48,999 nt of DNA from Paludibacteraceae bacterium (GTDB lineage Bacteria; Bacteroidota; Bacteroidia; Bacteroidales; Paludibacteraceae). Made by a program: the position numbers and the translations under genes. This document shows, one piece after another, positions 6,028 through 47,262 of this stretch; within the stretch, counting starts at the first letter, position 1; every line of letters starts with the position of its first letter. Under the pieces are notes generated by a model. The model was not told the DNA's origin, made no database searches, and was given only the letters and a program-made list of their open reading frames with translations. The stretch is from assembly GCA_024399835.1 (NCBI GenBank), contig JAKSNK010000012.1:1-48999 (forward strand). The letters are read 5' to 3'.

Positions 6028-6923
6028 TTTTTATGGCAGAGGAATAATCCGGAAATGATGATGGTGATGCCCAGCCATTTGCCCCAAGGCAACTGTTCTG
6101 AAAAGCCAAGCAACATAATCAATGCCGTGAAAACCGGGCGGATATTATTGAAAATATTGGCTTTCACTACACCCACAATACGGACTCCGTAACAATACAG
6201 CATAAACGCTACCGCCGAGGACATAACCGCCAAATATGCCAGCGATTGCCATTCTGCCACTATCCCTTGTGCAATCGTATGTACCGTTTCCGACCGCATG
6301 TCCGTAAATGCCCACAAACCGCAGAAAAGCACAAAAGAAACAATTTGCGTATAGAAAATAATAGTCAGTGGATTATACCTTTCCGGAATACGACGCAGCA
6401 TCACATTTGCACTCAACGCGAACATTACCGCCACTACCGCCAGCAATACCCCCCACGAGTTACCGACAGCAAAGGTCTCTGTTCCGACCAATACCAAAAC
6501 AGCTACGCCGACGGTGGAAACCAAGATGCCTGCGAACATGCGGGGAGTCTCTTTTTCCCGAAGGAATATCCATCCGAACAACGGAGCCAGCACAGGCGCA
6601 ACGGACAGCAGCGTTTCCGCGATAGTGGGCGTGGAAATCAAATCATAGGTGTAAGTCTCTGCCAAGTAGTAAAGAAAGGGCTGAAACAACCCTGCAAGGA
6701 AGAAAAGTGGCAGGTCTTTCTTATTCGCCTTCTGTAAGCAGAACAAGGTACTACGACGGGCTACCACTCCGATGATGAACATGAACAGCACCGACAACGC
6801 AAAACGGACAACAATCAATGTCAGTGGGCTGAATGAAGTCAATGCTTCCTTGACGGCAATGCCCGATGCCGACCAGATAATCATTGACAGGACAATGGCA
6901 CTATAAGGCAGTAGTTTTTTCAT
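6024..6923 (-). CDS. EamA-family (DMT) transporter
   Basis: A 299-residue membrane protein with about ten hydrophobic helices in two repeated five-helix halves, each an EamA domain. The first half has a typical IIWSASGIAVKEAL entry and the second starts after the loop at about residue 150. The family exports small metabolites, amino acids or nucleotides across the inner membrane, and the substrate cannot be read from sequence. It overlaps both neighbours by 4 bp (the AraC regulator upstream and the tyrosine phosphatase downstream), which indicates one transcript. The AraC protein encoded first may control its expression in response to the exported compound. Confidence 0.92.
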   Translation of the reverse strand: MKKLLPYSAIVLSMIIWSASGIAVKEALTSFSPLTLIVVRFALSVLFMFIIGVVARRSTLFCLQKANKKDLPLFFLAGLFQPFLYYLAETYTYDLISTPTIAETLLSVAPVLAPLFGWIFLREKETPRMFAGILVSTVGVAVLVLVGTETFAVGNSWGVLLAVVAVMFALSANVMLRRIPERYNPLTIIFYTQIVSFVLFCGLWAFTDMRSETVHTIAQGIVAEWQSLAYLAVMSSAVAFMLYCYGVRIVGVVKANIFNNIRPVFTALIMLLGFSEQLPWGKWLGITIIISGLFLCHKK

Positions 6924-12687: not shown

Positions 12688-14041
12688 TATTATATTTATT
12701 TGTGTCTTTGTGTGCGTAGCCAACACAACGATAGCGCAATCATTGTCGTTGGACAGTTGCTTGCGGTTGGCAGAGCAGAATAATCGCGATTTGGCGCGGT
12801 CAGCACTCTCCGTAGAGAAAGCACAACAGGTGCGTGCCGAAGTGCGCACGAAGTATTTCCCACAAGTCAATTTGACGGGAATGGGCTTTCACTCCCTCAA
12901 GCCACTCGTGCAAGTAGGAGTAGAGGATGTCCCCAATGCTACCGCAAGGGATATACTGAATACGCTATATGCTAATTATGGTGCTGCATTAGGACTGGAC
13001 AAGACAATCGGTTTTATGCAGCATGGTGTAGTAGCAACCGTCTCGGTACTACAACCAATCTATATGGGAGGAAAGATTGTAACCGGCAATAAATTAGCAC
13101 AATTGGGCGTTGAGGCAGAGCGTCTGCAAGCAGATATTCAACACCGAGACATATTGCTGAGCGTGGAAGAAAGTTATTGGTTAGTAGTCAATCTGGAAGC
13201 CAAACATCAGACAGTTCAGTCGGTGAGTTTGCTGCTTGACACTTTGCATACGATGGTAAATAGTGCAGTCAATGCAGGGCTGGCATTGCATAATGATTTG
13301 CTAATGGTGGAAATGCGTCAGGACGAATTGGCAGCCCAAACGCTGCAACTCAATAACGGCATAATACTGGCTCGCCGGGCACTCTTTCAAAGTATAGGCA
13401 TTGCCTATTCTGATACGCTGCAATTGAGTGATACGATAAGTTGTAAGCAGGATACTTTATCTTCGTCGGTAGATTCCCGTCGTCCTGAATCCGAACTACT
13501 TTCGTTGCAAGTTCACGCAGAGCAACTAAAACGGCGAATGATTTTGGCAGATGCCTTACCACAAGTGGCTTTAGGAGGTATCTATGGCTATATGAATTAT
13601 CTGGCACCCTTTTCGCAAAGTGGCGGTAGTCAGTTTGTTACCACCACTCAAAATAAGTATTTGAACGGTTTTGTAGGTGTGACGGTTCGTGTTCCTTTAA
13701 CCGACTGGTGGGAAACGGGACATAAACTAAAAGAACACGAGATAATGATTCGTCAAGCAGAATTGCAGCAGAAAGATTTGGAAGAAAAGATGCGATTGCA
13801 GGAGCAGCAGGCATTTGACCATGTAATGGAAAGTGCTGCACTAATTAAACAATACGAACATTCGTTGCAACATGCCCAGGAGAACTTGCGTCTCGCGCGA
13901 GTAAATTATCAAGCAGGAATGATGACTATATCTGATTTACTGCAATCTCAATCGTTGTTGCTGCAAGCGCAAAATAACCTTACTGATGCGCTTATACAAC
14001 ACCGTATCGCCTATCGCACCTATTGGGCATTAAGGCAGTAG
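12668..14041 (+). CDS. TolC-family outer-membrane efflux channel
   Basis: A 457-residue protein with an N-terminal signal peptide (cleavage probably after TTIAQ) and two related outer-membrane-efflux repeats of long amphipathic helices. The pattern SLDSCLRLAEQNNRDLARSA opens the first repeat, and a helix rich in Gln/Leu (QAELQQKDLEEKMRLQEQQ) marks the second. Three such proteins would form the trans-periplasmic tunnel used by the RND pump encoded immediately upstream. The start codon lies 20 bp inside the pump gene, so translation is coupled. The 3' end converges on and overlaps the PAP2 gene by 22 bp, with no terminator between them. Confidence 0.93.
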   Translation: MRKRQLNIIFICVFVCVANTTIAQSLSLDSCLRLAEQNNRDLARSALSVEKAQQVRAEVRTKYFPQVNLTGMGFHSLKPLVQVGVEDVPNATARDILNTLYANYGAALGLDKTIGFMQHGVVATVSVLQPIYMGGKIVTGNKLAQLGVEAERLQADIQHRDILLSVEESYWLVVNLEAKHQTVQSVSLLLDTLHTMVNSAVNAGLALHNDLLMVEMRQDELAAQTLQLNNGIILARRALFQSIGIAYSDTLQLSDTISCKQDTLSSSVDSRRPESELLSLQVHAEQLKRRMILADALPQVALGGIYGYMNYLAPFSQSGGSQFVTTTQNKYLNGFVGVTVRVPLTDWWETGHKLKEHEIMIRQAELQQKDLEEKMRLQEQQAFDHVMESAALIKQYEHSLQHAQENLRLARVNYQAGMMTISDLLQSQSLLLQAQNNLTDALIQHRIAYRTYWALRQ

Positions 14042-14856
14042 TTTTTGTTACGGCGGATAAGATTCCAATTCCAAAAGGCAGTATTTTCAATCTTCGGTAC
14101 GGCGTAGAGTAGGGCAATGGTGGTGCCAACACCGATGACTGCTCCGCCGAGGATGTCTTCGGCAAAGTGCTGATTGAGATAGATACGCGAATAGGCCCCC
14201 AAAACCGCCAACAAGAAGCAAAAGAGGTCTATAAGGACATACCAACCTCTAATTCGACCGTCGGTCGACCGTCGGTCGACTGTCGGTAAACACCCTACTA
14301 ACTGCTGCTTCATCCTTCGACTCGCCGTCGGCTCGCCGTCGGCTCGCCGTCGGCAAACACCCGTACAGATATCGGTCCATTCACAGAGAACAATCGCCAA
14401 TGTCAAAAACAGAGCAAAAAAAGTAGTCGTATGTCCGCTGGGGAAGGAATACCATTGACTCAATTCCACTCCGTCCACAAACTGCAACTGTATATCCGGC
14501 GCATAACGCGAAAAATACAAATACGGGCGGTCGGTATTGAAAATATACTTGACAATCTGTCCAACCAATCCACTTAACAAAACATCCGCCAACAAGAAAG
14601 AAGCCCAACCTGCCTTATAAAAAAGGAGTAGGGCAACAATCACATAAGGCACCCATTCGCCGACATGCGTGTAAGCAGCATAGAAACAATCTTCAAAAGG
14701 CGTATGCGTGGCATTGAGGCGCAGATGCAAGTCAATCTTGTCGTAATAACCGATACAGCAAAGAAGACCGATGCAGAACACCAGCGACAGCAGAACAAAA
14801 ACCCCGCTATATTTAATCCACTTTTTCTCCAAGAGTATTGTATAAATCACCGTCAC
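14020..14856 (-). CDS. PAP2-family phosphatase with an in-frame repeat insertion
   Basis: A 278-residue membrane protein with five or six helices and a complete PAP2 active site: KYIFNTDRP (KX6RP), FPSGH and SRIYLNQHFAED (SRX5HX3D). The family dephosphorylates lipid phosphates such as undecaprenyl pyrophosphate or phosphatidylglycerol phosphate at the periplasmic face. Between PSGH and the SR motif sit about 40 extra residues, including CRRRADGEPTASRR and GCLPTVDRRSTDG, encoded by the family A repeat (14254-14363). They fall in a loop between helices and spare the catalytic residues. The annotated ATG lies 44 bp inside the preceding surface-protein gene; a TTG eight codons later (LEKKWIKYSG) is an alternative start. 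Confidence 0.88.
   Translation of the reverse strand: MTVIYTILLEKKWIKYSGVFVLLSLVFCIGLLCCIGYYDKIDLHLRLNATHTPFEDCFYAAYTHVGEWVPYVIVALLLFYKAGWASFLLADVLLSGLVGQIVKYIFNTDRPYLYFSRYAPDIQLQFVDGVELSQWYSFPSGHTTTFFALFLTLAIVLCEWTDICTGVCRRRADGEPTASRRMKQQLVGCLPTVDRRSTDGRIRGWYVLIDLFCFLLAVLGAYSRIYLNQHFAEDILGGAVIGVGTTIALLYAVPKIENTAFWNWNLIRRNKNYCLNAQ
14254..14363. repeat. Family A repeat inside the PAP2 coding region
   Basis: Three 11-bp units of the TCGACCGTCGG type (14254-14286) are followed by AAACACCCTACTA. After an 18-20 bp spacer come three CTCGCCGTCGG units (14321-14353) and another AAACACCC. The stretch is read through on the minus strand in the PAP2 frame, adding PTVDRRS- and RRRADGEPT-like peptides. 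Confidence 0.85.
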
Positions 14857-15595
14857 GCATGATGTACATGTTGCCGTCGTGCATTACTTTTCTTGCACTC
14901 TCATCGTCTCGGAAAGGATTGTCCATCTGACTTTCTCCCGTGAGGTTGAGTCGGCAAGAGCGTAGCCATTGTCCATTTGGCATCAGTACCAATACTTCGA
15001 TGTATTGGTTGGGTTCAAAGCCGGCATTCTGATAATAGATAGACTGACTTTGTTCGGGCTTGAGTTCTCCGTCAATGAGCCACTGATACCCGCGTATGTC
15101 GTATTGCTGAATGGCAGCAAGTGTGACACCGACCACATTGTCGTATTTTTGGTGCATGATAGAGTTCGGGAGCCGTACGAAGATAGAAATGGGGAAGGAC
15201 AAAGTCTGCATGCAGATAGGATCGTGCACTTCGATATGTCCGTTAAGAATACCCGGTTCAAACTCGCTGACATTGAGCAAGAAATAAGTATAGTCGGAAG
15301 AAACGGTCATTTCAAATTCCCGTTGCTCACCATGCAGATTGGTGACAAAGACGGCGCGGTCAATCTCTCCCTTATGGAAGAAGAAGTCAATGAGAATGGA
15401 AGTTTGTCCGTCGCACTCAGGATCAACCTCGGTCGGTACTTCCAAATCAAGGCAATAGACGATATTGATATGGTAATTGACGACGCTATCGCAGTTTTGA
15501 CTGTTCATGTAGGTATAAGAACGGTCGGCTGTCTCGTAAATCCATTCGCCGTTGAGCAGGAAGGAGTCCTTGGCAGTAATCTCAAGGTCGGTCGG
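14813..15595 (-). repeat. Homogenised C-terminal module, copy 1
   Basis: About 783 bp match 17502-18284 at a constant offset of 2689 bp. By eye, roughly the first 675 bp carry only one difference, a synonymous Val codon change three codons before the stop. A handful of substitutions appear in the last ~110 bp, and similarity then drops abruptly. This indicates recent duplication or gene conversion. Confidence 0.9.
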
Positions 15596-17497
15596 CACAG
15601 AAGCCATACGGTGGTAAACAGTAAAGACTTTGACAGAGTCGCAATCGTAAGTTATCGTATCAGACGAGATGAGTTCGCCCGTATAATCGTAAGGTTCGCA
15701 ATAGGAAGTGTCACGGAAGATAGTGTCGGGCTTGCTGACATAGAAAGAGACACGCAAGTTCTCGCTGTTCTCCATGCGCGTGCAGGAGTTGATATAAGTG
15801 GCAGTAACCATCATATCGTACCACCCCTTGGTCTCATACACATGCTTGGCAGTAGAAGTCGCAAGTATATCCGATGTTCCGTCGCCATAGTCATAAGTTA
15901 CTTTTTGGTAGGTGTTGTGCCCGATATTCAGTTTGACTTCAACGGTGTCTCCTGCGCAGAAATGTGTAGAAGCGACACTATCAATGCCCACGGGAATGCC
16001 ATTAAGCATGATGCTTCGGCTGACCGTAGAAGAACCGCAAGAGTAAGCATACGATTCGCGTTCGCCATAACCGTACACATGTGCGAGGAAACCCATATCG
16101 CCATGCAAGTGGTAGTTGCAAGGCGTTCTGAGAATTTGGTCCTCCAGTTGAATACGCGCGAAACTATAGTCAGGATTACCACTAATCGGGTGGAAAGAAG
16201 ATGCTATGTTGGTCGCCGGCGCGTTGTTGGAAGTCAGCTGCATAGACGGCACATTTGCCGTAGGAGTGACAATGTTGACATAGTGCAACTTAGCCAACGA
16301 GGTATGATATGTAGAGAAAGTAATGTCCGTAATGACCTGCTCAATCGGACTGACCCACAACATAGCCGGGTCGCTGACCAAGGTATCGGAACTGACTTTG
16401 GGAACGACATTGTCGTAGCGGTTGGAAACCATAAAGATGTGTATGCCGGCAGGGCATGAAGTGGTCAAATAGCACGACGAATCAACCACCAAAGGCAAGG
16501 GCAGTTCGCCGTTGTAACGGGATTGTCCCGGATTGTCGGCGCAATATGCGAGTGCTTCACCTATTTCAAATTCCCAATACTGCTTGGGTTCTTTGGAGAA
16601 ATCGAAGGTATGAACCAAAACCTGTTCGCCATCCTTGGAATTGACATACACTTCCGTTCCGTCGCTGATAGCCATGACGGCAACAATGTCACGGCGGTGG
16701 TGTTTGGAAGCGGTAATGGCAAATTCGTTACCCCAATAAGCCAAAGGCATGGCTTGCGAGAACAGATGGTCACGGTCTCGCACCGAGTCGGGCAGGTTGG
16801 TATGCGGGCAGCCCTGGAAAATGGCAATGGGTTTGCCGTCACGAGCCGTAACACGCGTACCGCTAAGGTCTGCCTTATAACCGTCCTTGAGACCCGTCCA
16901 TACATAATAGACTTGCCCCTTGTTGAGCGTAGCGGTCTGATGACCTGTCTTGTTGCCGCTAGTGGTGGCTGTCAGGTAATAGTCCACTACCGTATTATCT
17001 TCCACGGCTACAATAGCAAAGTGCGACCCCTGCGGTTTGCCTTCGTGGTCGGAAGGGCGATAGGTCTGAATGAGATAGTCGTCCAACAGCGAAGATGTAG
17101 GCAGGATATTGGCAGCATCAAAGGATTTATCTCTGTAGTTACCGGCAAAAAGCGAAATATCCGCCGTAGCAGTAACATGCAGAGCCGTATAAGTGGGTGT
17201 CTCGTTGGTAGTGCTATAGCAACTATTCCAACTGCCCTGCGGAATCAGCACCTCTTGTGCCGACCCGGCTGCCAAATTGACCTGAGTATTATAACCCGTG
17301 GAGGGGTTGGTTACTGTAACTACGGTTGCCTGCATGGAGGAGAATGTCAAGCGCAATTCTTGAGGACCTCCATCGTTCTCACTTGCACGCAAGAAAGTAA
17401 CCCAGAAATCTTTGCCTTCAGTAGAAGGTGTTTGGGCTGTCAGTTGAAAACTAATCATGAGCGGCAACAAAAGTGCCAATAACCATTTGTTTTGCAT
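14813..17497 (-). CDS. Giant secreted surface protein 1 (IgGFc-binding-like + PKD)
   Basis: An 894-residue exported protein. A signal peptide (cleavage near LTAQ) is followed at once by STEGKDFWVTFLRA, the hallmark opening of the IgGFc-binding-like domain found in Bacteroidota surface proteins, spanning roughly residues 25-480. A PKD-type domain with VTYDYGDGTSD lies near residue 540. The last 260 residues are a module almost identical to that of the neighbouring paralogue (codons differ mainly near its start), ending in the short tail RKVMHDGNMYIMRDGDLYNT plus LGEKVD. I infer a cell-surface or secreted adhesin-like protein; the ligand is unknown. It is separated from paralogue 2 by 4 bp and its 3' end overlaps the PAP2 start. 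Confidence 0.85.
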   Translation of the reverse strand: MQNKWLLALLLPLMISFQLTAQTPSTEGKDFWVTFLRASENDGGPQELRLTFSSMQATVVTVTNPSTGYNTQVNLAAGSAQEVLIPQGSWNSCYSTTNETPTYTALHVTATADISLFAGNYRDKSFDAANILPTSSLLDDYLIQTYRPSDHEGKPQGSHFAIVAVEDNTVVDYYLTATTSGNKTGHQTATLNKGQVYYVWTGLKDGYKADLSGTRVTARDGKPIAIFQGCPHTNLPDSVRDRDHLFSQAMPLAYWGNEFAITASKHHRRDIVAVMAISDGTEVYVNSKDGEQVLVHTFDFSKEPKQYWEFEIGEALAYCADNPGQSRYNGELPLPLVVDSSCYLTTSCPAGIHIFMVSNRYDNVVPKVSSDTLVSDPAMLWVSPIEQVITDITFSTYHTSLAKLHYVNIVTPTANVPSMQLTSNNAPATNIASSFHPISGNPDYSFARIQLEDQILRTPCNYHLHGDMGFLAHVYGYGERESYAYSCGSSTVSRSIMLNGIPVGIDSVASTHFCAGDTVEVKLNIGHNTYQKVTYDYGDGTSDILATSTAKHVYETKGWYDMMVTATYINSCTRMENSENLRVSFYVSKPDTIFRDTSYCEPYDYTGELISSDTITYDCDSVKVFTVYHRMASVPTDLEITAKDSFLLNGEWIYETADRSYTYMNSQNCDSVVNYHINIVYCLDLEVPTEVDPECDGQTSILIDFFFHKGEIDRAVFVTNLHGEQREFEMTVSSDYTYFLLNVSEFEPGILNGHIEVHDPICMQTLSFPISIFVRLPNSIMHQKYDNVVGVTLAAIQQYDIRGYQWLIDGELKPEQSQSIYYQNAGFEPNQYIEVLVLMPNGQWLRSCRLNLTGESQMDNPFRDDESARKVMHDGNMYIMRDGDLYNTLGEKVD

Positions 17498-17501
17498 AGA
17501 A

Positions 17502-18284
17502 TTAATCTACTTTTTCTCCAAGAGTATTGTATAAATCACCGTCACGCATGATGTACATGTTGCCGTCGTGCATTACTTTTCTTGCACTCTCATCGTCTCG
17601 GAAAGGATTGTCCATCTGACTTTCTCCCGTGAGGTTGAGTCGGCAAGAGCGTAGCCATTGTCCATTTGGCATCAGTACCAATACTTCGATGTATTGGTTG
17701 GGTTCAAAGCCGGCATTCTGATAATAGATAGACTGACTTTGTTCGGGCTTGAGTTCTCCGTCAATGAGCCACTGATACCCGCGTATGTCGTATTGCTGAA
17801 TGGCAGCAAGTGTGACACCGACCACATTGTCGTATTTTTGGTGCATGATAGAGTTCGGGAGCCGTACGAAGATAGAAATGGGGAAGGACAAAGTCTGCAT
17901 GCAGATAGGATCGTGCACTTCGATATGTCCGTTAAGAATACCCGGTTCAAACTCGCTGACATTGAGCAAGAAATAAGTATAGTCGGAAGAAACGGTCATT
18001 TCAAATTCCCGTTGCTCACCATGCAGATTGGTGACAAAGACGGCGCGGTCAATCTCTCCCTTATGGAAGAAGAAGTCAATGAGAATGGAAGTTTGTCCGT
18101 CGCACTCAGGATCAACCTCGGTCGGTACTTCCAAATCAAGGCAATAGACGATATTGATATGGTAATTGACGACGCTATCGCAGTTCTGACTATTCATGTA
18201 GGTATAAGAACGGTCGGCTGTCTCGTAAATCCATTCGCCATTGAGCAGGAAGGAATCCTTGGCAGTAATCTCGATGTCGGTCGG
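17502..18284 (-). repeat. Homogenised C-terminal module, copy 2
   Basis: Partner of the module at 14813-15595. The shared block begins exactly at the stop codon and ends within the coding region of both genes, so the exchange replaced whole C-terminal domains. Confidence 0.9.
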
Positions 18285-26870: not shown

Positions 26871-26964
26871 GCTTAACGGTGGCTTCTACTCCCGTTCTAC
26901 CCCCGTTAAGGTATCGCTATACTACCGCTATACTACCGCTCTACTACCGATGTTCTACCGATAA
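26871..26964. repeat. Family C repeat array at the pssA 3' end
   Basis: Two modules. 26871-26906 holds 11-bp-phased units of the CTACTCCCGTT type; 26911-26964 holds units of the CTATACTACCG/CTACTACCGAT type. The last five codons and stop of pssA lie inside the array. The same two modules occur in reverse orientation and swapped order at 47891-47995. Apart from this array the 26847-26943 gap is empty. Confidence 0.8.
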
Positions 26965-35217: not shown

Positions 35218-35300
35218 TGACAAACTTGGGAAATTTGGCAAACTTGGGAATTTTGGTAATCCCTATGAGTTCCGCAAGTTATGTGAGTTTGGCAAGTTCG
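35218..35300. repeat. AACTTGGGAAATTTGG-type repeat at the dapA 3' end
   Basis: Two clear 17-bp-spaced copies of CAAACTTGGGAA(A/T)TTTGG (35220-35256) are followed by looser copies (CCGCAAGTTATGTGAGTTTGG) that run across the dapA stop codon and its last residues (ELAKLT). Confidence 0.6.
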
Positions 35301-36232
35301 GCATGTAAATCTGCCTCAAGTTGGTCTGAAGCAGGGACGAGAGGAAGACGAAGGGTGTTGGAAACAAGTCCTTTTTGACTCAAAACCGCCTTGATGCCTG
35401 TGGGATTCCCTTCGCGGAACAACAAATGCACCAATTCGGCATATCGTGCCTGCAATGATTCGTCCTGTTGACGGACAATCTGCCCGAACTCACATGGAAA
35501 AGCGTTGGATGCCACGCTGATTAGTCCGCTACCTCCTGCCTGCATCACTTCGACCGCTATGCCGTCGTCTCCGCTGATGACCATCAAAGGTGCTTCATCT
35601 GTGCTTTCGCCGTCGGTTCGCCGTCGGCTCGCCGTCGGCAAGATACCGTTCGACCGTCGGTCGACCGTCGGCAAAGACCCTACTAAACCCAACAAGTGAT
35701 GTATCTGCTCAAGGTTACCGCTTGCCTCCTTGATGCCTATCACTTTGTCCGGCATGGTTTGCCAAATGCGGATGACCGTTTCGGGCAGCATATTGACCCC
35801 CGTTCTTCCCGGTACATTATACAAAATGACAGGCACGGGACTCGCCTCTGCTATTGCTACAAAATGGCGGTACAGTCCCTCCTGATTGGGTTTGTTGTAA
35901 TAGGGGCACACGCTGAGAACCGCGGCAAAGTGCGCCTGTATCCATTCTCTCTGCTCGTGTAATGTATGCACGACTTGTGCCGTGCAGTTGCCTCCGCAAC
36001 CCAATACCAGCGGCAAACGCCCTGCTACACGGTCGATAATAAACTGACCGACCGACCGTTTTTCTTCGTCGGTCATGGTGGCTGCTTCGCCCGTGGTGCC
36101 TAACACTACCAAATAATTCACATGATGGGCTATTTGCTCGTCCAACAGCCGTTCCAACGATGCAAAATCAATCTCACCGTCCGGCTTGAACGGCGTAATC
36201 AATGCCGTGCCTAATCCGCGTAATTGTTCCAT
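35279..36232 (-). CDS. dapA: 4-hydroxy-tetrahydrodipicolinate synthase with an in-frame repeat insertion
   Basis: A 317-residue TIM-barrel enzyme starting MEQLRGLGTALITPFK. It condenses pyruvate with aspartate semialdehyde in lysine and diaminopimelate synthesis. Key residues are present: GTTGEAATM, the catalytic Tyr in ILYNVPGRTG and the Schiff-base Lys in VIGIKEASG. After this Lys strand, about 26 extra residues (including SLPTVDRRSNGILPTASRRR) are encoded by the family A repeat before the barrel resumes at PLMVISGDDG. Without them the length would be about 291, normal for DapA. The reading frame extends upstream to 36340, but the promoter at 36250-36281 excludes that start. It is expressed divergently from the nuclease gene. 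Confidence 0.95.
   Translation of the reverse strand: MEQLRGLGTALITPFKPDGEIDFASLERLLDEQIAHHVNYLVVLGTTGEAATMTDEEKRSVGQFIIDRVAGRLPLVLGCGGNCTAQVVHTLHEQREWIQAHFAAVLSVCPYYNKPNQEGLYRHFVAIAEASPVPVILYNVPGRTGVNMLPETVIRIWQTMPDKVIGIKEASGNLEQIHHLLGLVGSLPTVDRRSNGILPTASRRRTDGESTDEAPLMVISGDDGIAVEVMQAGGSGLISVASNAFPCEFGQIVRQQDESLQARYAELVHLLFREGNPTGIKAVLSQKGLVSNTLRLPLVPASDQLEADLHAELAKLT
35607..35688. repeat. Family A repeat inside dapA
   Basis: Three (T/C)TCGCCGTCGG units (35607-35639), an 11-bp spacer, two TCGACCGTCGG units (35651-35672) and the CAAAGACCCTACTA flank. It has the same ingredients as at 14254-14363, with the two subtypes in swapped order relative to coding direction, and is translated in the same PTVDRRS phase. 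Confidence 0.87.
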
Positions 36233-36249
36233 TTGTTCGAAATTTTGTG

Positions 36250-36281
36250 CAAAGATAAGGAAAAATTTGGATATATCCAAA
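36250..36281 (-). promoter_or_regulatory. dapA promoter (half of a symmetrical divergent pair)
   Basis: Minus-strand TTTG (36281-36278), 20-bp spacer, TATCTTTG (36257-36250), 18 bp before the dapA ATG at 36232. Confidence 0.78.
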
Positions 36282-36297
36282 TAATTTTGTAACTTTG
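36266..36297 (+). promoter_or_regulatory. Promoter of the nuclease-ligA operon (half of a symmetrical divergent pair)
   Basis: TTTG (36266-36269), 20-bp spacer, TAACTTTG (36290-36297). Its TTTG and that of the dapA promoter are the two ends of the perfect 16-bp palindrome TTTGGATATATCCAAA. Confidence 0.78.
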
Positions 36298-36320
36298 CAC
36301 GCTCAAGTGATAAATTCATA

Positions 36321-40081
<3,761 letters not shown>

Positions 40082-40082
<1 letters not shown>

Positions 40083-40504
40083 TGTTTGAGCATAAGACCA
40101 TTCGTTGGATAGTATTGATAGCCATTGTCGGGATTCTCGTTTATGTGCTGATTCTGTTGAAGGGCGAGGACGGGCGTTCCATCCTTTTTCACCCCGTTAC
40201 TCCGCAGCAGGAGTATGTGACGGCGGATGTGGATAGTGCTATCGAGCGCCGCAATATGCGTCGTGCCAACAATGCCAACGAGCGCAAAGATACGATTATC
40301 AAATACGAATCCAATGTCTCTTTTATCGCCACATCGGATTCGGACTCGCTGGCGATGTATGAGGTGCATCGTGAGACTGCGCATGCGGTCAATCTGGATT
40401 TGACCGAAGAGAAAGAGCATGTATTCTTTACATGGGATGATATTACTGCCTATTTCCGGTTTATAGGCGAAACGATAGGAAATATATTTAATAAAAAGAA
40501 ATAG
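40082..40504 (+). CDS. Single-pass membrane protein of unknown function
   Basis: A 140-residue protein with one N-terminal membrane helix (IVLIAIVGILVYVLILL, residues 10-26). A charged periplasmic or cytoplasmic stretch follows, rich in Arg/Asn/Glu, and a C-terminal amphipathic segment ends GNIFNKKK. No family is recognised. It overlaps DUF6913 at TAATG and lies 2 bp before the aminopeptidase gene. The compact spacing shows that it is part of the operon and probably real. Confidence 0.7.
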
Positions 40505-40506
40505 AT

Positions 40507-42318
40507 ATGACTGTTAATGAGCGTGTGTCCGCCTTGCGGGTACTGATGAAAAAGAACGGATTGTCGGCATACATTATCCGAGGCACCGACCCTCATGCCA
40601 GTGAGTACATGGCTCCGCATTGGATGGAAATGTCATGGATTACCGGCTTTTTAGGCGAGTCGGGTACTGCCGTTGTTACGATGGACCAAGCGTTGCTGTG
40701 GACGGATAGCCGGTATTATTTGCAAGCCGGCGAAGAGTTAAAAGGGTCGGAATATAAACTGATGCGTGAGAGCGATGTTGATTGCCCCACTATAGCCGAA
40801 TGGCTGCTTTCAACTTTCAACTTTCAACTTTCAACTAAAATAGGTGTCAATCCTGAAATGTACAGCATAGACGGCTACCGCCTGCTGCAAACCGAACTGG
40901 AAGACGGAGGTTTGCGCCTGATGTCTATTGACCTGATTGCTCCTATATGGACAGAGGGACGCCCCGACATTCCCATGAACCCGTTGTATATTTACGAGGA
41001 CTGCTATGCCGGCGAGCGCGTGGGCGCTAAACTTGAGCGCGTGCGTGACATGCTGTCTGCCCATCGTTGCGATGCGTTGGTAATAGCCGAACTGGACGAG
41101 ATAGGTTGGCTGTTGAATATACGCGGCACGGATGTTGATTATACGCCTTGCGTGATTGCTTATTGTGTGGTGGAAAAGACCCGTTGCACATTGTTTGTCG
41201 ATTCGCGCAAAGTCTGCGATGCCGATGCCGCCGTATTGCGTGGCAAAGGGGTCGAACTGATGCCTTATCATGCCGTGTTTGATTATTTGAAAAATATCTC
41301 TGCCACGCGTGTGATGATGGACGGCAATCGTGTGAACGAAGCGCTGTACGAGTGTGTGTTGTCGTCGGTCAGTCATGCGGCATGCAAAGTGGTGACTCCC
41401 AGTCCGCTGCAGGTGATGATGTCTGTCAAGAACGATATCGAGTTGGCTGGTACGCGCCTTGCCATGCGGCAGGATGCTGTTGCCCTGACGCGCTTCTTCC
41501 GTTGGTTGGAAACGGAAGCACTTCAGTCGCCTCAGACGGAGATTACCTTGGCAGACCGGTTGCACGCTTACCGTGCTATGGGTACGCACTTTACGGACGA
41601 GAGTTTTGGCACGATAGCCGGTTGGAATGCCAACGGCGCTATTGTGCATTATGCCGCCAAACCCGAATCGTGTGCTGCTATTACAGGCAATGGCGTATTG
41701 CTGCTTGACTCGGGCGGACAGTACCTGGACGGAACTACCGATATAACCCGTACCGTGTGGGTAGGCGACGAAAAAGCTATTCCTGCCCAACTCAAACGCG
41801 ACTTTACTTTGGTGCTCAAGGGACATATAGCCCTTGCTCGTGCACGCTTCCCGAAGGGCACGCGAGGCAACCAGTTGGATGTGCTGGCGCATCAGTTCAT
41901 GTGGGCGGAAGGTGTGACTTACGGACACGGTACGGGGCACGGAGTGGGGCACTTTATGGGCTGCCACGAGGGACCGGCTAATATCCGTACGGATAATAAT
42001 ACCAATCCTATTCATTTGGGCAATGTCTTCTCCGACGAACCGGGTATTTACCGTGCCGGCGAATACGGTATTCGTACCGAGAACCTGATTGCCACGCGCC
42101 AAGCCGCTCCTTCGCCCCGTAGTACGGGAGAAACTTATTACGAATTTGAAACACTCACGCTCTGTTTCTACGATAAACGCCTGATGGAGTTCTCTATGCT
42201 CACGCCTGACGAGGTGGCATGGATTAACGACTACCATGCTTGGGTGGAACGCGAGGTAACTCCGTTGCTCAACGAGGACGAAGCAGCGTACTTGCATACC
42301 AAATGTTTACCCATTTAA
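40507..42318 (+). CDS. M24-family aminopeptidase P with a 7-bp repeat insertion
   Basis: A 603-residue enzyme of the long aminopeptidase P type. It has two N-terminal creatinase-like domains (about 1-310), the catalytic pita-bread domain (about 315-540) and a C-terminal extension typical of the long form. Metal ligands are visible: Asp in LDSGGQYLDGTTDITRT, His in GHGTGHGVGHFMG, and Glu in FSDEPGIYRAGEYGIRTENL. It removes N-terminal residues preceding proline, in the cytoplasm. The stretch STFNFQLSTK in the first N-terminal domain comes from four TTTCAAC units (40808-40835) and adds about nine residues without disturbing the frame. Its TAA stop lies within the 8-bp repeat that leads into nadC. 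Confidence 0.94.
   Translation: MTVNERVSALRVLMKKNGLSAYIIRGTDPHASEYMAPHWMEMSWITGFLGESGTAVVTMDQALLWTDSRYYLQAGEELKGSEYKLMRESDVDCPTIAEWLLSTFNFQLSTKIGVNPEMYSIDGYRLLQTELEDGGLRLMSIDLIAPIWTEGRPDIPMNPLYIYEDCYAGERVGAKLERVRDMLSAHRCDALVIAELDEIGWLLNIRGTDVDYTPCVIAYCVVEKTRCTLFVDSRKVCDADAAVLRGKGVELMPYHAVFDYLKNISATRVMMDGNRVNEALYECVLSSVSHAACKVVTPSPLQVMMSVKNDIELAGTRLAMRQDAVALTRFFRWLETEALQSPQTEITLADRLHAYRAMGTHFTDESFGTIAGWNANGAIVHYAAKPESCAAITGNGVLLLDSGGQYLDGTTDITRTVWVGDEKAIPAQLKRDFTLVLKGHIALARARFPKGTRGNQLDVLAHQFMWAEGVTYGHGTGHGVGHFMGCHEGPANIRTDNNTNPIHLGNVFSDEPGIYRAGEYGIRTENLIATRQAAPSPRSTGETYYEFETLTLCFYDKRLMEFSMLTPDEVAWINDYHAWVEREVTPLLNEDEAAYLHTKCLPI
40808..40835 (+). repeat. TTTCAAC 7-bp tandem repeat inside the aminopeptidase gene
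   Basis: Four perfect copies of TTTCAAC. They encode part of STFNFQLST in the first N-terminal domain, away from the metal site. Confidence 0.85.
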
Positions 42319-42353: not shown

Positions 42354-43214
42354 ATGAATACTACCGAATTAAACAAATTGATTGACCTCTGGTTTGAAGA
42401 GGATATACGCGACGGTGATCATACTTCGCTCAGTTGCATACCTGAGACGCAAATGGGTACGCAACAGTTGATAATCAAGGCAGACGGTATCCTTGCCGGC
42501 GTAGAGGTGGCTAAGGAGATTATTCGCCATTTTGACCCCGAGTTGCAGTTTGAGGGCTTTATTGCCGACGGTGCAGAGGTGCATAAGGGCGATATCGCTT
42601 TCCGTGTGACGGGCAAGGAGTTGTCGCTTTTGCAGGTTGAGCGCACTATGCTCAATATCATGCAGCGCATGTCCGGCATTGCCACTACCACTCATCGTTA
42701 TCAGTCTCTGATAGCCGATACCAAGTGCCATGTGCTGGATACACGCAAGACGACACCGGGACTGCGTTATTTGGAGAAGGAAGCCGTGCTGATTGGTGGC
42801 GGTATGAACCATCGTATCGGACTGTTTGACATGATTCTGCTCAAGGATAACCATGTCGATTTTGCAGGAGGTATAACCAATGCCCTTGTGCGTGCGCGTG
42901 ATTATTGTATTAGGAATAATAAGGACCTCCGCATCGAGATTGAGACGCGCAATCTCAAGGAGATAGAGGAGGCATTGCGAACCAATATCCCCGATCGTAT
43001 CATGTTGGACAATTTCTCGCCCGAACGGACGGCGCAAGCGGTTGATTTTATTCGCAATTGGACTTGCGGTAAGTACATCGAAATCGAGTCCAGTGGCGGT
43101 ATTACCATTGATACGCTGCGTGACTATGCTGTCTGTGGCGTGGACTTTGTGTCTGTGGGCGCACTTACTCATAGTGTCAAATCGTTGGATATGTCATTTA
43201 AAGCCGTAAAATAA
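42354..43214 (+). CDS. nadC: Quinolinate phosphoribosyltransferase (carboxylating)
   Basis: A 286-residue enzyme of NAD synthesis that converts quinolinate and PRPP to nicotinate mononucleotide. The N-terminal sandwich domain covers about 1-110. The barrel carries the family motifs RKTTPGLRYLEKEAVLIGGG and HRIGLFDMILLKDNH, IEIETRNLKE, and IESSGGITIDTLRDYA with the late SVGALTHS. All substrate-binding Arg/Lys/His positions expected in these motifs are present. No nadA or nadB is in the window. It overlaps argS at TAATG. Confidence 0.96.
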   Translation: MNTTELNKLIDLWFEEDIRDGDHTSLSCIPETQMGTQQLIIKADGILAGVEVAKEIIRHFDPELQFEGFIADGAEVHKGDIAFRVTGKELSLLQVERTMLNIMQRMSGIATTTHRYQSLIADTKCHVLDTRKTTPGLRYLEKEAVLIGGGMNHRIGLFDMILLKDNHVDFAGGITNALVRARDYCIRNNKDLRIEIETRNLKEIEEALRTNIPDRIMLDNFSPERTAQAVDFIRNWTCGKYIEIESSGGITIDTLRDYAVCGVDFVSVGALTHSVKSLDMSFKAVK

Positions 43215-45079
43215 TGAAATTAGAAGAAATACTTAAATCTCAAGTCATAGAGGCGGTTAAAGCCCTCTACCAAATCGAAGCAACGGATTCGATGATTCAG
43301 TTGCAGAAGACCCGTCCCGAGTTTGAGGGACATATTACATTGGTGGTCTTCCCTTTTGTCAAACTTGCCCGCAAAGCGCCTGCCATGGTGGCGCAGGAGA
43401 TAGGTGACTACCTTACCGGTTCCCCGATTCACCCCTTTCCCGATTCCCCGATTCACCGATTCACCGGTTCACCGCTAATCAGCTCCTTTAACGCCGTTCA
43501 GGGCTTCCTCAATCTCACTATTGCCGATTCGTATTGGTTGCAAGTCCTTGGCGAAATAGCCGATGATCCTCATTACGGTATGGTGTCTCCTTCGGAGGAA
43601 ACCCACGGAAGGGGCTTGATGATGGTCGAATACTCCTCTCCCAATACCAATAAACCCCTTCATTTGGGGCATGTGCGCAACAATCTGCTGGGCTATTCAA
43701 TCGCCAAGATTCAGGAGGCAAACGGCTGGCAAGTGGTCAAAACGAACATTGTCAACGACCGTGGCATACATATCTGCAAATCCATGTTGGCATGGTTGCG
43801 CTTCGGCAATGGCGAGACGCCCGAAACAAGTGGCAAGAAGGGTGACCACCTCATTGGCGATTACTATGTGCGCTTTGACAAGGAGTACAAAAAGGAAGTC
43901 GCTGACCTGATGGCACAGGGCATGGACGAAGATACTGCCAAGCGCGAGGCGCCGCTCATGAAGGAGGCACAAGCCATGTTGTTGCGTTGGGAACAGGGCG
44001 ACCCTGAGGTGCGTGCGTTGTGGGAGAAAATGAATAGTTGGGTCTATGCCGGTTTTGACGAGACTTATCGCATGATGGGTGTCAGTTTCGACAAGATTTA
44101 TTACGAGTCCAATACTTACCTTGAGGGCAAGTCCGAAGTTGAGAAGGGACTGCAGTCGGGTGTTTTCTACCGCCGTCCCGATAATAGTGTTTGGGCGGAC
44201 CTCACCCCGGACGGCTTGGACGAAAAACTCTTGCTTCGCCAGGACGGCACTTCGGTCTATATGACGCAGGATATCGGTACTGCCAAACTGCGTTTCCGGG
44301 ATTATCCTATCGACAAGATGGTTTATGTCGTGGGCAACGAGCAGGAGTATCATTTCAAGGTTTTGTCTATCTTGCTGGACCGTCTGGGTTTCCCCTTTGG
44401 CAAGGAACTCGTGCATTTCTCTTACGGTATGGTCGAACTGCCTAACGGCAAGATGAAGAGCCGTGAGGGAACGGTTGTGGATGCCGATGACCTGATGGCA
44501 AGCATGATTGCCGACGCCAAGGAGATTAGCAAGGACAAGGTCAATACATTGCCGGATATTACCGAGCAGGAGGCGGACGATATTGCCCGCAAGGTCGGAC
44601 TGGGTGCGCTCAAGTATTTTATCCTCAAGGTCGATCCGCGCAAGAATATGCTGTTCAACCCTGCCGAGAGTATTGATTTCAATGGCAATACGGGACCGTT
44701 TATCCAATATACCTATGCCCGTATTCAGTCTGTCTTGCGCAAATCCGATTCCCCGCTTCCCCGATTCACCGATTCCTCGATTCCCCGATTCACCGATTCA
44801 CCGATTCACCTCAACTCCAAGGAGTTGTCGCTCATTCAGCGCTTGAGCGAGTTCCCCTCTGTGGTCCGTCAGGCAGGTGATGAGTTTTCTCCGGCGGTTA
44901 TCTGTAATTATGCGTATGCGTTGGCGCAGGATTTCAATTCGTTCTACCATGATTATTCGATTTTGAACGAGGAGAACGGTCAGGTGCGTGCTTTGCGTAT
45001 CATGTTGTCTGCTTCGGTGGCTAAGGTGATTGCTGCGGCGATGTCTCTGCTCGGTATCGAGGTCCCCGAACGCATGTAG
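43214..45079 (+). CDS. argS: Arginyl-tRNA synthetase carrying two repeat-encoded inserts
   Basis: A 621-residue class I synthetase. It has an N-terminal additional domain (1-110), a Rossmann catalytic core with SSPNTNKPLHLGHVRNN (HIGH-type motif) and GKMKSREGTVVDADDL (KMSKS-type motif), and a C-terminal anticodon-binding helical domain. Two stretches are foreign to the family: SPIHPFPDSPIHRFTGSP in the N-terminal domain (about residues 74-92) and SDSPLPRFTDSSIPRFTD with SPIHL between the core and the anticodon domain. Both are encoded by the family B 8-bp repeat. The inserts avoid catalytic motifs. Relatives are, from memory, about 20-25 residues shorter. It lies between nadC and GH105 in one operon. 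Confidence 0.96.
   Translation: MKLEEILKSQVIEAVKALYQIEATDSMIQLQKTRPEFEGHITLVVFPFVKLARKAPAMVAQEIGDYLTGSPIHPFPDSPIHRFTGSPLISSFNAVQGFLNLTIADSYWLQVLGEIADDPHYGMVSPSEETHGRGLMMVEYSSPNTNKPLHLGHVRNNLLGYSIAKIQEANGWQVVKTNIVNDRGIHICKSMLAWLRFGNGETPETSGKKGDHLIGDYYVRFDKEYKKEVADLMAQGMDEDTAKREAPLMKEAQAMLLRWEQGDPEVRALWEKMNSWVYAGFDETYRMMGVSFDKIYYESNTYLEGKSEVEKGLQSGVFYRRPDNSVWADLTPDGLDEKLLLRQDGTSVYMTQDIGTAKLRFRDYPIDKMVYVVGNEQEYHFKVLSILLDRLGFPFGKELVHFSYGMVELPNGKMKSREGTVVDADDLMASMIADAKEISKDKVNTLPDITEQEADDIARKVGLGALKYFILKVDPRKNMLFNPAESIDFNGNTGPFIQYTYARIQSVLRKSDSPLPRFTDSSIPRFTDSPIHLNSKELSLIQRLSEFPSVVRQAGDEFSPAVICNYAYALAQDFNSFYHDYSILNEENGQVRALRIMLSASVAKVIAAAMSLLGIEVPERM
43418..43473 (+). repeat. Family B repeat inside argS, first site
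   Basis: Seven 8-bp units (consensus GATTCACC/GATTCCCC, one degenerate CCTTTCCC) read through in the ArgS frame as an Ile/Pro/His/Phe/Ser-rich peptide. Confidence 0.87.
44747..44810 (+). repeat. Family B repeat inside argS, second site
   Basis: Eight 8-bp units of GATTCACC type (GATTCCCC, GCTTCCCC, GATTCACC, GATTCCTC ...), encoding a Ser/Pro/Arg/Phe/Thr/Asp peptide ahead of the anticodon-binding domain. Confidence 0.87.
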
Positions 45080-47014: not shown

Positions 47015-47049
47015 CTACCCAACAAGACATTGTGATTCAAAGAAAACTC

Positions 47050-47262
47050 GTTTCACCGGTTCACCGATTAAATTCTGTTCGTACCACAAAACTCTTATAT
47101 TCCCTCAGCGTTGGTGCGAGCTTATTATTTATTATTTATTATTTATTATTTATTCCGTTTCCCCGGTTCACCGATTAAACTCTGTTCGTACCACAAAACT
47201 CTTATATTCCCTCCGCGTTAGTGCGAGCTTATTATTTATTATTTATTGTCTATTATTTATTT
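47050..47262 (+). repeat. Two tandem copies of a ~107-bp block ending in a TTATTAT 7-bp repeat
   Basis: Copies start at 47050 (GTTTCACC GGTTCACC) and 47157 (GTTTCCCC GGTTCACC). Both pass through CTGTTCGTACCACAAAACTC and CTTATATTCCCTC and end in runs of TTATTAT. Only a few substitutions separate them. Confidence 0.87.

Follow-up and report, generated by a model that had tools for sequence, protein, structure and literature searches.

An array of short repeats inside dapA

What kind of DNA adds about 25 residues to DapA without closing its reading frame, how far has it spread, and what becomes of it once it sits in a gene? The question arose from a stretch of 48,999 nucleotides of a Paludibacteraceae genome (contig JAKSNK010000012.1; the whole stretch is called the window below), where the frame for 4-hydroxy-tetrahydrodipicolinate synthase (dapA, 35282-36340, minus strand; Pfam DHDPS, 2e-64) remains open across an insert of tandem repeats. 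The likely start is an internal Met (MEQLRG) at 36232, giving a protein of 317 amino acids with the insert included. This gene is the single DapA match at E <= 1e-40 in the window's own genome (G000), an assembly of 1,759,035 bases (1.76 Mb) in 46 contigs that is 85% complete.

The element lies on the plus strand, within a minus-strand gene, and has five consecutive parts: a left arm or leader (GGTGCTTCATCTGTGCT, 35589-35605), an array of three B units of the form YYCGCCGTCGG (TTCGCCGTCGG, TTCGCCGTCGG, and CTCGCCGTCGG; 35606-35638), an 11-bp spacer that is not itself a unit (CAAGATACCGT, 35639-35649), an array of two A units (2 x TCGACCGTCGG, 35650-35671), and a right arm or tail (CAAAGACCCT, 35672-35681). 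The left arm bears the signature A[CT]N6T and can be aligned with a sister species, the right arm bears the signature [CGT]AA[AG], and the spacer recurs in three more composite arrays of the same genome (L018, L021, and L023). A first-pass annotation had described five palindromic 11-bp units at this place. Five units are indeed present, but they are of two kinds with a spacer between them, and while the A units form a palindrome (TCGACCG-T-CGGTCGA), the B units fit that description just loosely. The palindromes in the units have perfect arms of 7 nt or imperfect arms of 10 to 15 nt at 85 to 92% identity, with 0 to 1 nt between the arms or an overlap. As DNA, the fold z-scores of three arrays were -1.44, 0.04, and -2.63, the first being that of the dapA copy (-2.21 as RNA), and part of the sister species' dapA array scored -2.48.

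At the protein level, the insert reads ...HHLLGLVGSLPTVDRRSNGILPTASRRRTDGESTDEAPLMVISGDDG... and precedes the SGDD strand. In an alignment with the best solved DapA chain (3pb2, from Thermotoga maritima), query residues 220 to 249 stand opposite chain residues 183 to 187, a net insert of 25 residues, and the loop is 28 residues longer than the shortest loops of aligned relatives. Taking the roughly 26 residues estimated earlier from 317 leaves about 291, the usual DapA length that had been expected without the insert. Going by the layout of the fold, the insert presumably falls before the SGDD strand and after the helix that follows the strand with the Schiff-base lysine; the catalytic motifs look intact.

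A dispersed family with a common architecture

Within the window, TCGACCGTCGG occurs 12 times at up to one mismatch, compared with 0.45 matches expected, and none of 100 shuffles reached 12. Five of the 12 matches read on the minus strand; four of these are A arrays seen from the opposite side, and the fifth is a lone unit at 6508. As had been noticed at the outset, the element is present at two window loci besides dapA. One is an A2 array (two A units) at 369-390 on the plus strand, 41 bp upstream of rpsA (432-2252), whose product has six S1 domains. The other, at 14023-14883 on the minus strand, is the gene of a PAP2 phosphatase and carries an A3 array in frame at 14254-14286 and a B3 array at 14321-14353, both on the plus strand; the sister species has A4B3 there, with one B unit variant. 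In the assembly as a whole, searches at up to three mismatches returned 56 hits for the A 22-mer and 31 for the B 22-mer, while the reversed-pattern controls returned 0. Merging the hits gave 37 places, many of them outside the window; the repeat family seen in the window is real. Of these 37 places, 33 were followed through every analysis below; the other four, all A places, were added late, after the work on arms, layout, split genes, and the sister species.

The general form of the family is a leader of about 11 to 17 bp, 2 to 8 tandem 11-bp units (A and/or B), and a tail of about 10 bp. The arms are conserved, with the left signature in 32 of 40 arrays and the right signature in 39 of 40. 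No inverted-repeat ends were found in these 40 arrays, since the complementarity between the two arms of an element (3.83) was like that with the arms of other elements (3.96) or with shuffled arms (3.98). An uptake-sequence role was considered and dropped, because the window holds one lone unit only, and this with 1 mismatch. A scan of the window for known RNA families at gathering scores returned one tRNA and nothing else, and two 22-mers had 0 exact matches in a search of viral contigs from which near records may have been left out.

Insertion into genes in every phase

Nineteen of the 37 places are inside genes whose frame stays open, where "inside" was judged partly from the open frame itself. 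With names read in part from Pfam hits, the array-bearing genes encode or are trmO, an amidase-SPOR protein, ispG, the PAP2 phosphatase, dapA, a serine dehydratase, a family-9 glycosyltransferase, a RecD-like helicase, an LD-carboxypeptidase, obgE, folC, a DsbD-like protein, mnmA, ileS, an NRPS condensation domain, a polyprenyl synthase, prmC, a second class I tRNA synthetase (L271), and one protein without a Pfam match. Pfam hits were thus obtained for 18 of the 19, and the remaining one (L054) has an alignable orthologue in the sister species. Some of the arrays are located between or beside the Pfam matches instead of within them, e.g., in obgE, the DsbD-like protein, and the polyprenyl synthase. 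The remaining 18 places are intergenic or uncertain (L014 and L038 lie near an N terminus, L020 at a C terminus), and among the 15 of these that were checked, none showed a gene plainly split by an array. Relative to the host gene, 15 of the 19 in-gene arrays are antisense and 4 are sense (two-sided sign test, 0.019).

The in-gene arrays occur in all three phases, and the units themselves indicate how this can be. An A array is free of stops: whichever of the three frames is used, one strand encodes PTVDRRSTDGR cyclically and the other STVGRPSVDRR. The unit length of 11 shares no factor with 3, so that each step to the next unit shifts the frame; as the units also lack stops, each strand of an array yields the same cyclic peptide of 11 residues whichever frame is used. 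An insertion can therefore be read in any frame, and only its total length matters. Taken together, the existence of the repeat family and its in-frame retention in essential proteins are strongly supported.

Distribution in the genus and repeats in the same loops of relatives

Among 120 genomes searched, the A 22-mer was found within two mismatches in 26, all of them among the 73 genomes of the genus (the window's own included) and none among the 47 others, so that the repeat family is confined to one genus in this set. Exact matches came from named records of horse-faeces and roe-deer Paludibacteraceae, of Candidatus Colicola coprequi, and of RUG281. Units vary by genome, and among the matches listed the variants were TTGACCGTCGG, TCGACCGTCGT, and GCGACCGTCGG. 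Of 49 arrays in loci of other genomes (a set that counts one locus or more, L072/L129 among them, twice), 24 fall within long open reading frames, and all six proteins scanned from these 24 frames had Pfam hits.

DapA is matched at 1e-40 in 59 of 76 genus genomes, and 29 relatives having a locus were aligned with the window's protein. The residues of the insert are present in 0 of these 29, and the sister species carries an insert of rearranged units at the same site; likewise, no relative in the dapA and ispG alignments has an A/B insert apart from the sister species. The DapA loop varies in length among the relatives, and some loops carry 16-mers (GGTCTGTCAGCGAAGC), 7-mers such as AGTCAAG, or runs resembling AATTAAAA. 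In the equivalent loops, TRF detected tandem arrays in 8 of 34 dapA genes (own and sister genes included, L203 [= L098] excluded), 15 of 30 ileS genes, and 3 of 30 ispG genes (own gene included in both). Array density per kb was 6.15 in the loop against 0.099 in the rest of the frame for dapA, 9.8 against 0.209 for ileS, and 3.83 against 0.023 for ispG, in loops that were picked for follow-up because G000 carries inserts there; many of the ileS arrays counted as elsewhere fall in two other variable loops. The TTGACCGTCGG form is located in the same ileS loop of three other species. The picture is thus wider than the first reading of the window had it, in that some of the same loops carry other repeat families in other species.

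Three further observations go beyond the window. IleRS proteins across the genus (L168 to L197) have arrays near residues ~230, 775, and 1020, built from 7- and 11-bp units of many sequences. The Candidatus Colicola coprequi record (G125) has two dapA-like genes (L201 and L204) whose loops differ in length; they are separated by about 3 kb of the same contig. An array of the heptamer AACTTTC is also frequent in some other families of the order, with 49, 26, and 9 hits in G106, G109, and G112; the dispersal of 7-bp arrays was checked for one unit only, and the reversed-pattern control for the 7-mer search is uninformative, the unit being its own mirror image by rotation.

Same sites, different arrays in a sister species

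Most of the window has a collinear counterpart in 60 kb of contig C34 of the sister species (G123, Horse_feces148), in whose genome 27 array loci were counted. By their flanking DNA, 13 of these loci match the 33 G000 loci compared, with piece identities of about 69 to 91%; at the intergenic pairs, L020/L208 above all, the exact site is less certain. Ten of the 13 pairs are in genes, and in all 10 the frame is open in both species and the protein can be aligned on both sides of the array. The in-gene pairs have dN/dS values of 0.05 to 0.21, which are only indicative because synonymous differences amount to 0.49 to 0.73.

Arrays at the same site often differ in make-up between the two species. 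Content or order differs at dapA, prmC, folC, PAP2, sdaA, ileS, and ispG and is unchanged at obgE (A2), trmO (A2), and L054 (B3). In dapA, the arms align and both inserts measure 66 bp, yet G000 has B3-spacer-A2 and G123 has A3B3, i.e., the opposite order of unit types. A length of 66 bp is also shared at prmC (B2A4 in G000 versus A3B3 with two variant units in G123), whereas folC has B3-spacer-A2 versus A4B4, and spans differ at folC (66 bp in G000 and 88 bp in G123), PAP2 (100 and 77 bp), ileS (33 and 22 bp), and ispG (22 and 33 bp). Among composites with a spacing of up to 16 bp, the order was B to A in 6 of 6 cases in G000 and A to B in 8 of 8 in G123 (Fisher, 1/3003, with the cut picked post hoc); at any spacing, the contrast is weaker, with 7 B to A and 6 A to B in G000 against 0 and 12 in G123.

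We also considered whether arrays are being homogenized overall within each species. The edit distance between arrays was 0.32 for the same site between species and 0.47 to 0.50 between sites within a species, so that concerted evolution of the arrays as a whole is unsupported, and the species signature is restricted to composite order and unit variants. At one place an entire element differs: the A2 element upstream of rpsA is absent from G123, a net difference of 49 bp. This pair of occupied and empty sites implies that whole elements come or go, here through either a loss in G123 or a gain. No target-site duplication was seen at this one pair, whose flanks have diverged.

Enzymes that could move the elements

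Neither Y1_Tnp nor the reverse transcriptase model RVT_1 had a match in G000, and a resident Y1/RAYT transposase or reverse transcriptase is therefore not supported as the driver, although a missing gene is possible given that the assembly is 85% complete. Across the genus, Y1_Tnp matched in 23 of 76 genomes (19 above the cutoff) and RVT_1 in 20 of 76. The array-rich genomes G004 and G068 have a match to neither, and the array-carrying genomes G009, G022, and G035 have one Y1 match apiece and none to RVT_1.

Origin and turnover of the arrays

We favor, with a probability of roughly 0.62, the explanation that these repeats are a dispersed leader-array-tail family, tolerated in loops and kept in frame by selection, whose arrays are replaced in place by homology-driven exchange. 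New copies would enter as whole elements, selection would then purge those that break frame or fold, leaving survivors in loops, and resident arrays might be rewritten by ectopic gene conversion or unequal recombination between the dispersed arrays. We infer this exchange, which probably takes place, from arms that stay site specific while composite order is species specific. A broader version, which we advance tentatively and with the odds somewhat against it, is that the loops of essential enzymes in this genus are continually overwritten: dispersed arrays, built from nontriplet units (of 7, 8, 11, or 16 bp, among other lengths) and open in every frame, would enter tolerant loops and then be replaced by copying from arrays elsewhere in the genome, so that loop sequence would follow the current repeat pool of the species and not the history of the gene.

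The arms conserved on both sides, the short odd palindromes of the A units, and the presence or absence of a whole element upstream of rpsA would also fit a nonautonomous transposable repeat like REP/RAYT elements or MITEs, inserted whole by a transposase acting in trans and differing later by ordinary decay. A Y1 match exists in 23 of the 76 genus genomes, including the array-carrying G009, G022, and G035, but the array-rich G000, G004, and G068 lack one, the arms have no inverted-repeat complementarity (3.83 versus 3.98 when shuffled), and a reversal of unit order at one site is not decay; we regard this origin as rather unlikely. An ancestral longer array that was trimmed differently in each lineage could imitate rewriting, and a long composite per site (e.g., B3-A3-B3), of which each species kept another part with no exchange between loci, would account for the greater likeness of same-site arrays and for the colinear arms in dapA. 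It would, however, require the loss of opposite sides at dapA, folC, and prmC in the two species with 66 bp left in both at dapA and prmC, and a B-A-B array is found in none of the 33 + 27 loci, which makes differential deletion improbable as well.

Adoption of the inserts for a function in the interaction, regulation, or stability of the enzymes might explain why the same sites are retained in two species and why 15 of 19 in-gene arrays are antisense. Since the host enzymes are unrelated, most gene sites shared by the two species are unlike in the peptides they contain, and aligned dapA and ispG relatives other than the sister species have no A/B insert, we consider such a role very unlikely. 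Local replication slippage in tolerant loops, as in ordinary microsatellites and without any dispersal, would be consistent with the unrelated short tandem units in relatives' loops and may account for some 7-bp arrays. As a general account it is extremely unlikely, and for the A/B family it is refuted by the same 22-mers at 37 places with conserved arms, to which the 49-bp presence/absence difference at rpsA adds. The idea that the insert goes untranslated, through ribosome bypass or splicing from the mRNA, draws on its being short and partly structured; bypassing would have no need of the stop-free frames kept in the genes, and we hold its probability to be close to negligible.

Comparison with known repeats

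The family invites comparison with several known repeat systems. The Rickettsia palindromic element (RPE) folds as one stable hairpin. RPEs are elements of ~150 bp that encode a conserved peptide in Rickettsia (PMC10969869), and RPE-4 and RPE-6 are CGTC tagged with no linked transposase (PMC10969869, PMC3733652). The likeness to RPEs that the first-pass annotation had drawn holds: ours, too, are dispersed repeats in frame in many unrelated, conserved protein genes (19 places), and the reading as a protein-invading family comparable to RPEs is supported. The differences are tandem 11-mers of 22 to 100 bp, frame-independent peptides, divergence between sister species, and DNA fold z-scores (-1.44, 0.04, -2.63, and -2.48) that do not match a single stable hairpin. 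REPs bear a GTAG or CGTC tag that stays unpaired, they are mostly intergenic, the CGTC-tagged ones have 8- to 9-bp stems with 4- to 5-nt loops and no linked transposase, and many of the intragenic GTAG- or CGTC-tagged REPs (Opitutus, Thauera, R. conorii, and others) add 20 to 30 residues (PMC3733652). The window's family resembles these in consisting of short dispersed palindromic repeats within open reading frames. It differs from such tagged REPs in its head-to-tail arrays, in having CGTC inside the palindrome, and in the 19 of 37 places in genes; from GTAG REPs with a RAYT in that the 85% complete G000 has no Y1_Tnp match; and from MITEs in that terminal inverted repeats are absent. The kind as such is already established by RPEs and intragenic REPs (PMC10969869, PMC3733652).

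The nearest architecture is that of BrickBuilt in Porphyromonas gingivalis, also of the Bacteroidales, with a leader, a spacer-less tandem repeat, and a tail in 19 copies in one strain (PMC4596501). The leader-array-tail form, documented here by arm signatures in 32 and 39 of 40 arrays, is common to both; unlike the 23-bp units, inverted-repeat ends, and always intergenic position given there for BrickBuilt (PMC4596501), our family has 11-bp units, no inverted ends, and 19 of 37 places in genes. The nearest dispersed nontriplet tandem repeats are the G-rich heptameric repeats of Xanthomonas and Nostoc (PMC4692102). They share with our arrays the genome-wide dispersal and nontriplet period but are described as underrepresented in coding regions, whereas the arrays studied here lie inside essential enzymes. 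In the open-licence literature, we found no report of in-frame repeats in these bacteria, which is weak evidence of novelty.

Through this family, a single genus with more than 70 searchable genomes provides numerous natural insertion points in essential enzymes, and matching sites offer occupied, empty, and rewritten states. Three questions thereby become open to testing: how foreign peptides are accommodated in proteins, whether units readable in any frame are at an advantage within genes, and by what route short repeats disperse when no transposase is evident. The family also advises caution, as differences in loop length and extra residues in such proteins are not necessarily adaptive.

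Other repeats in the window

Several other repeats were observed in the window. The arginyl-tRNA synthetase gene (43202-45076, plus strand) has two in-frame arrays of 8-bp units (CCGATTCA/CCGATTCC) at 43415-43474 and 44745-44807; the sister's gene is without the first and has at the second a different sequence with a 24-bp repeat (TRF). In the M24 peptidase gene (40495-42315, plus strand), CTTTCAA is repeated 4.3 times in frame at 40807-40836, and the collinear place in the sister species holds GAATTGA x6. A further 11-bp array (CGCTATACTAC) lies at 26915-26960, and the sister species has a near-identical unit at roughly the collinear position. Two 300-nt stretches (14808-15107 and 17497-17796), 2.7 kb apart, are 99% identical, and 47049-47261 is a 107-bp tandem duplication with 7-bp runs within it.
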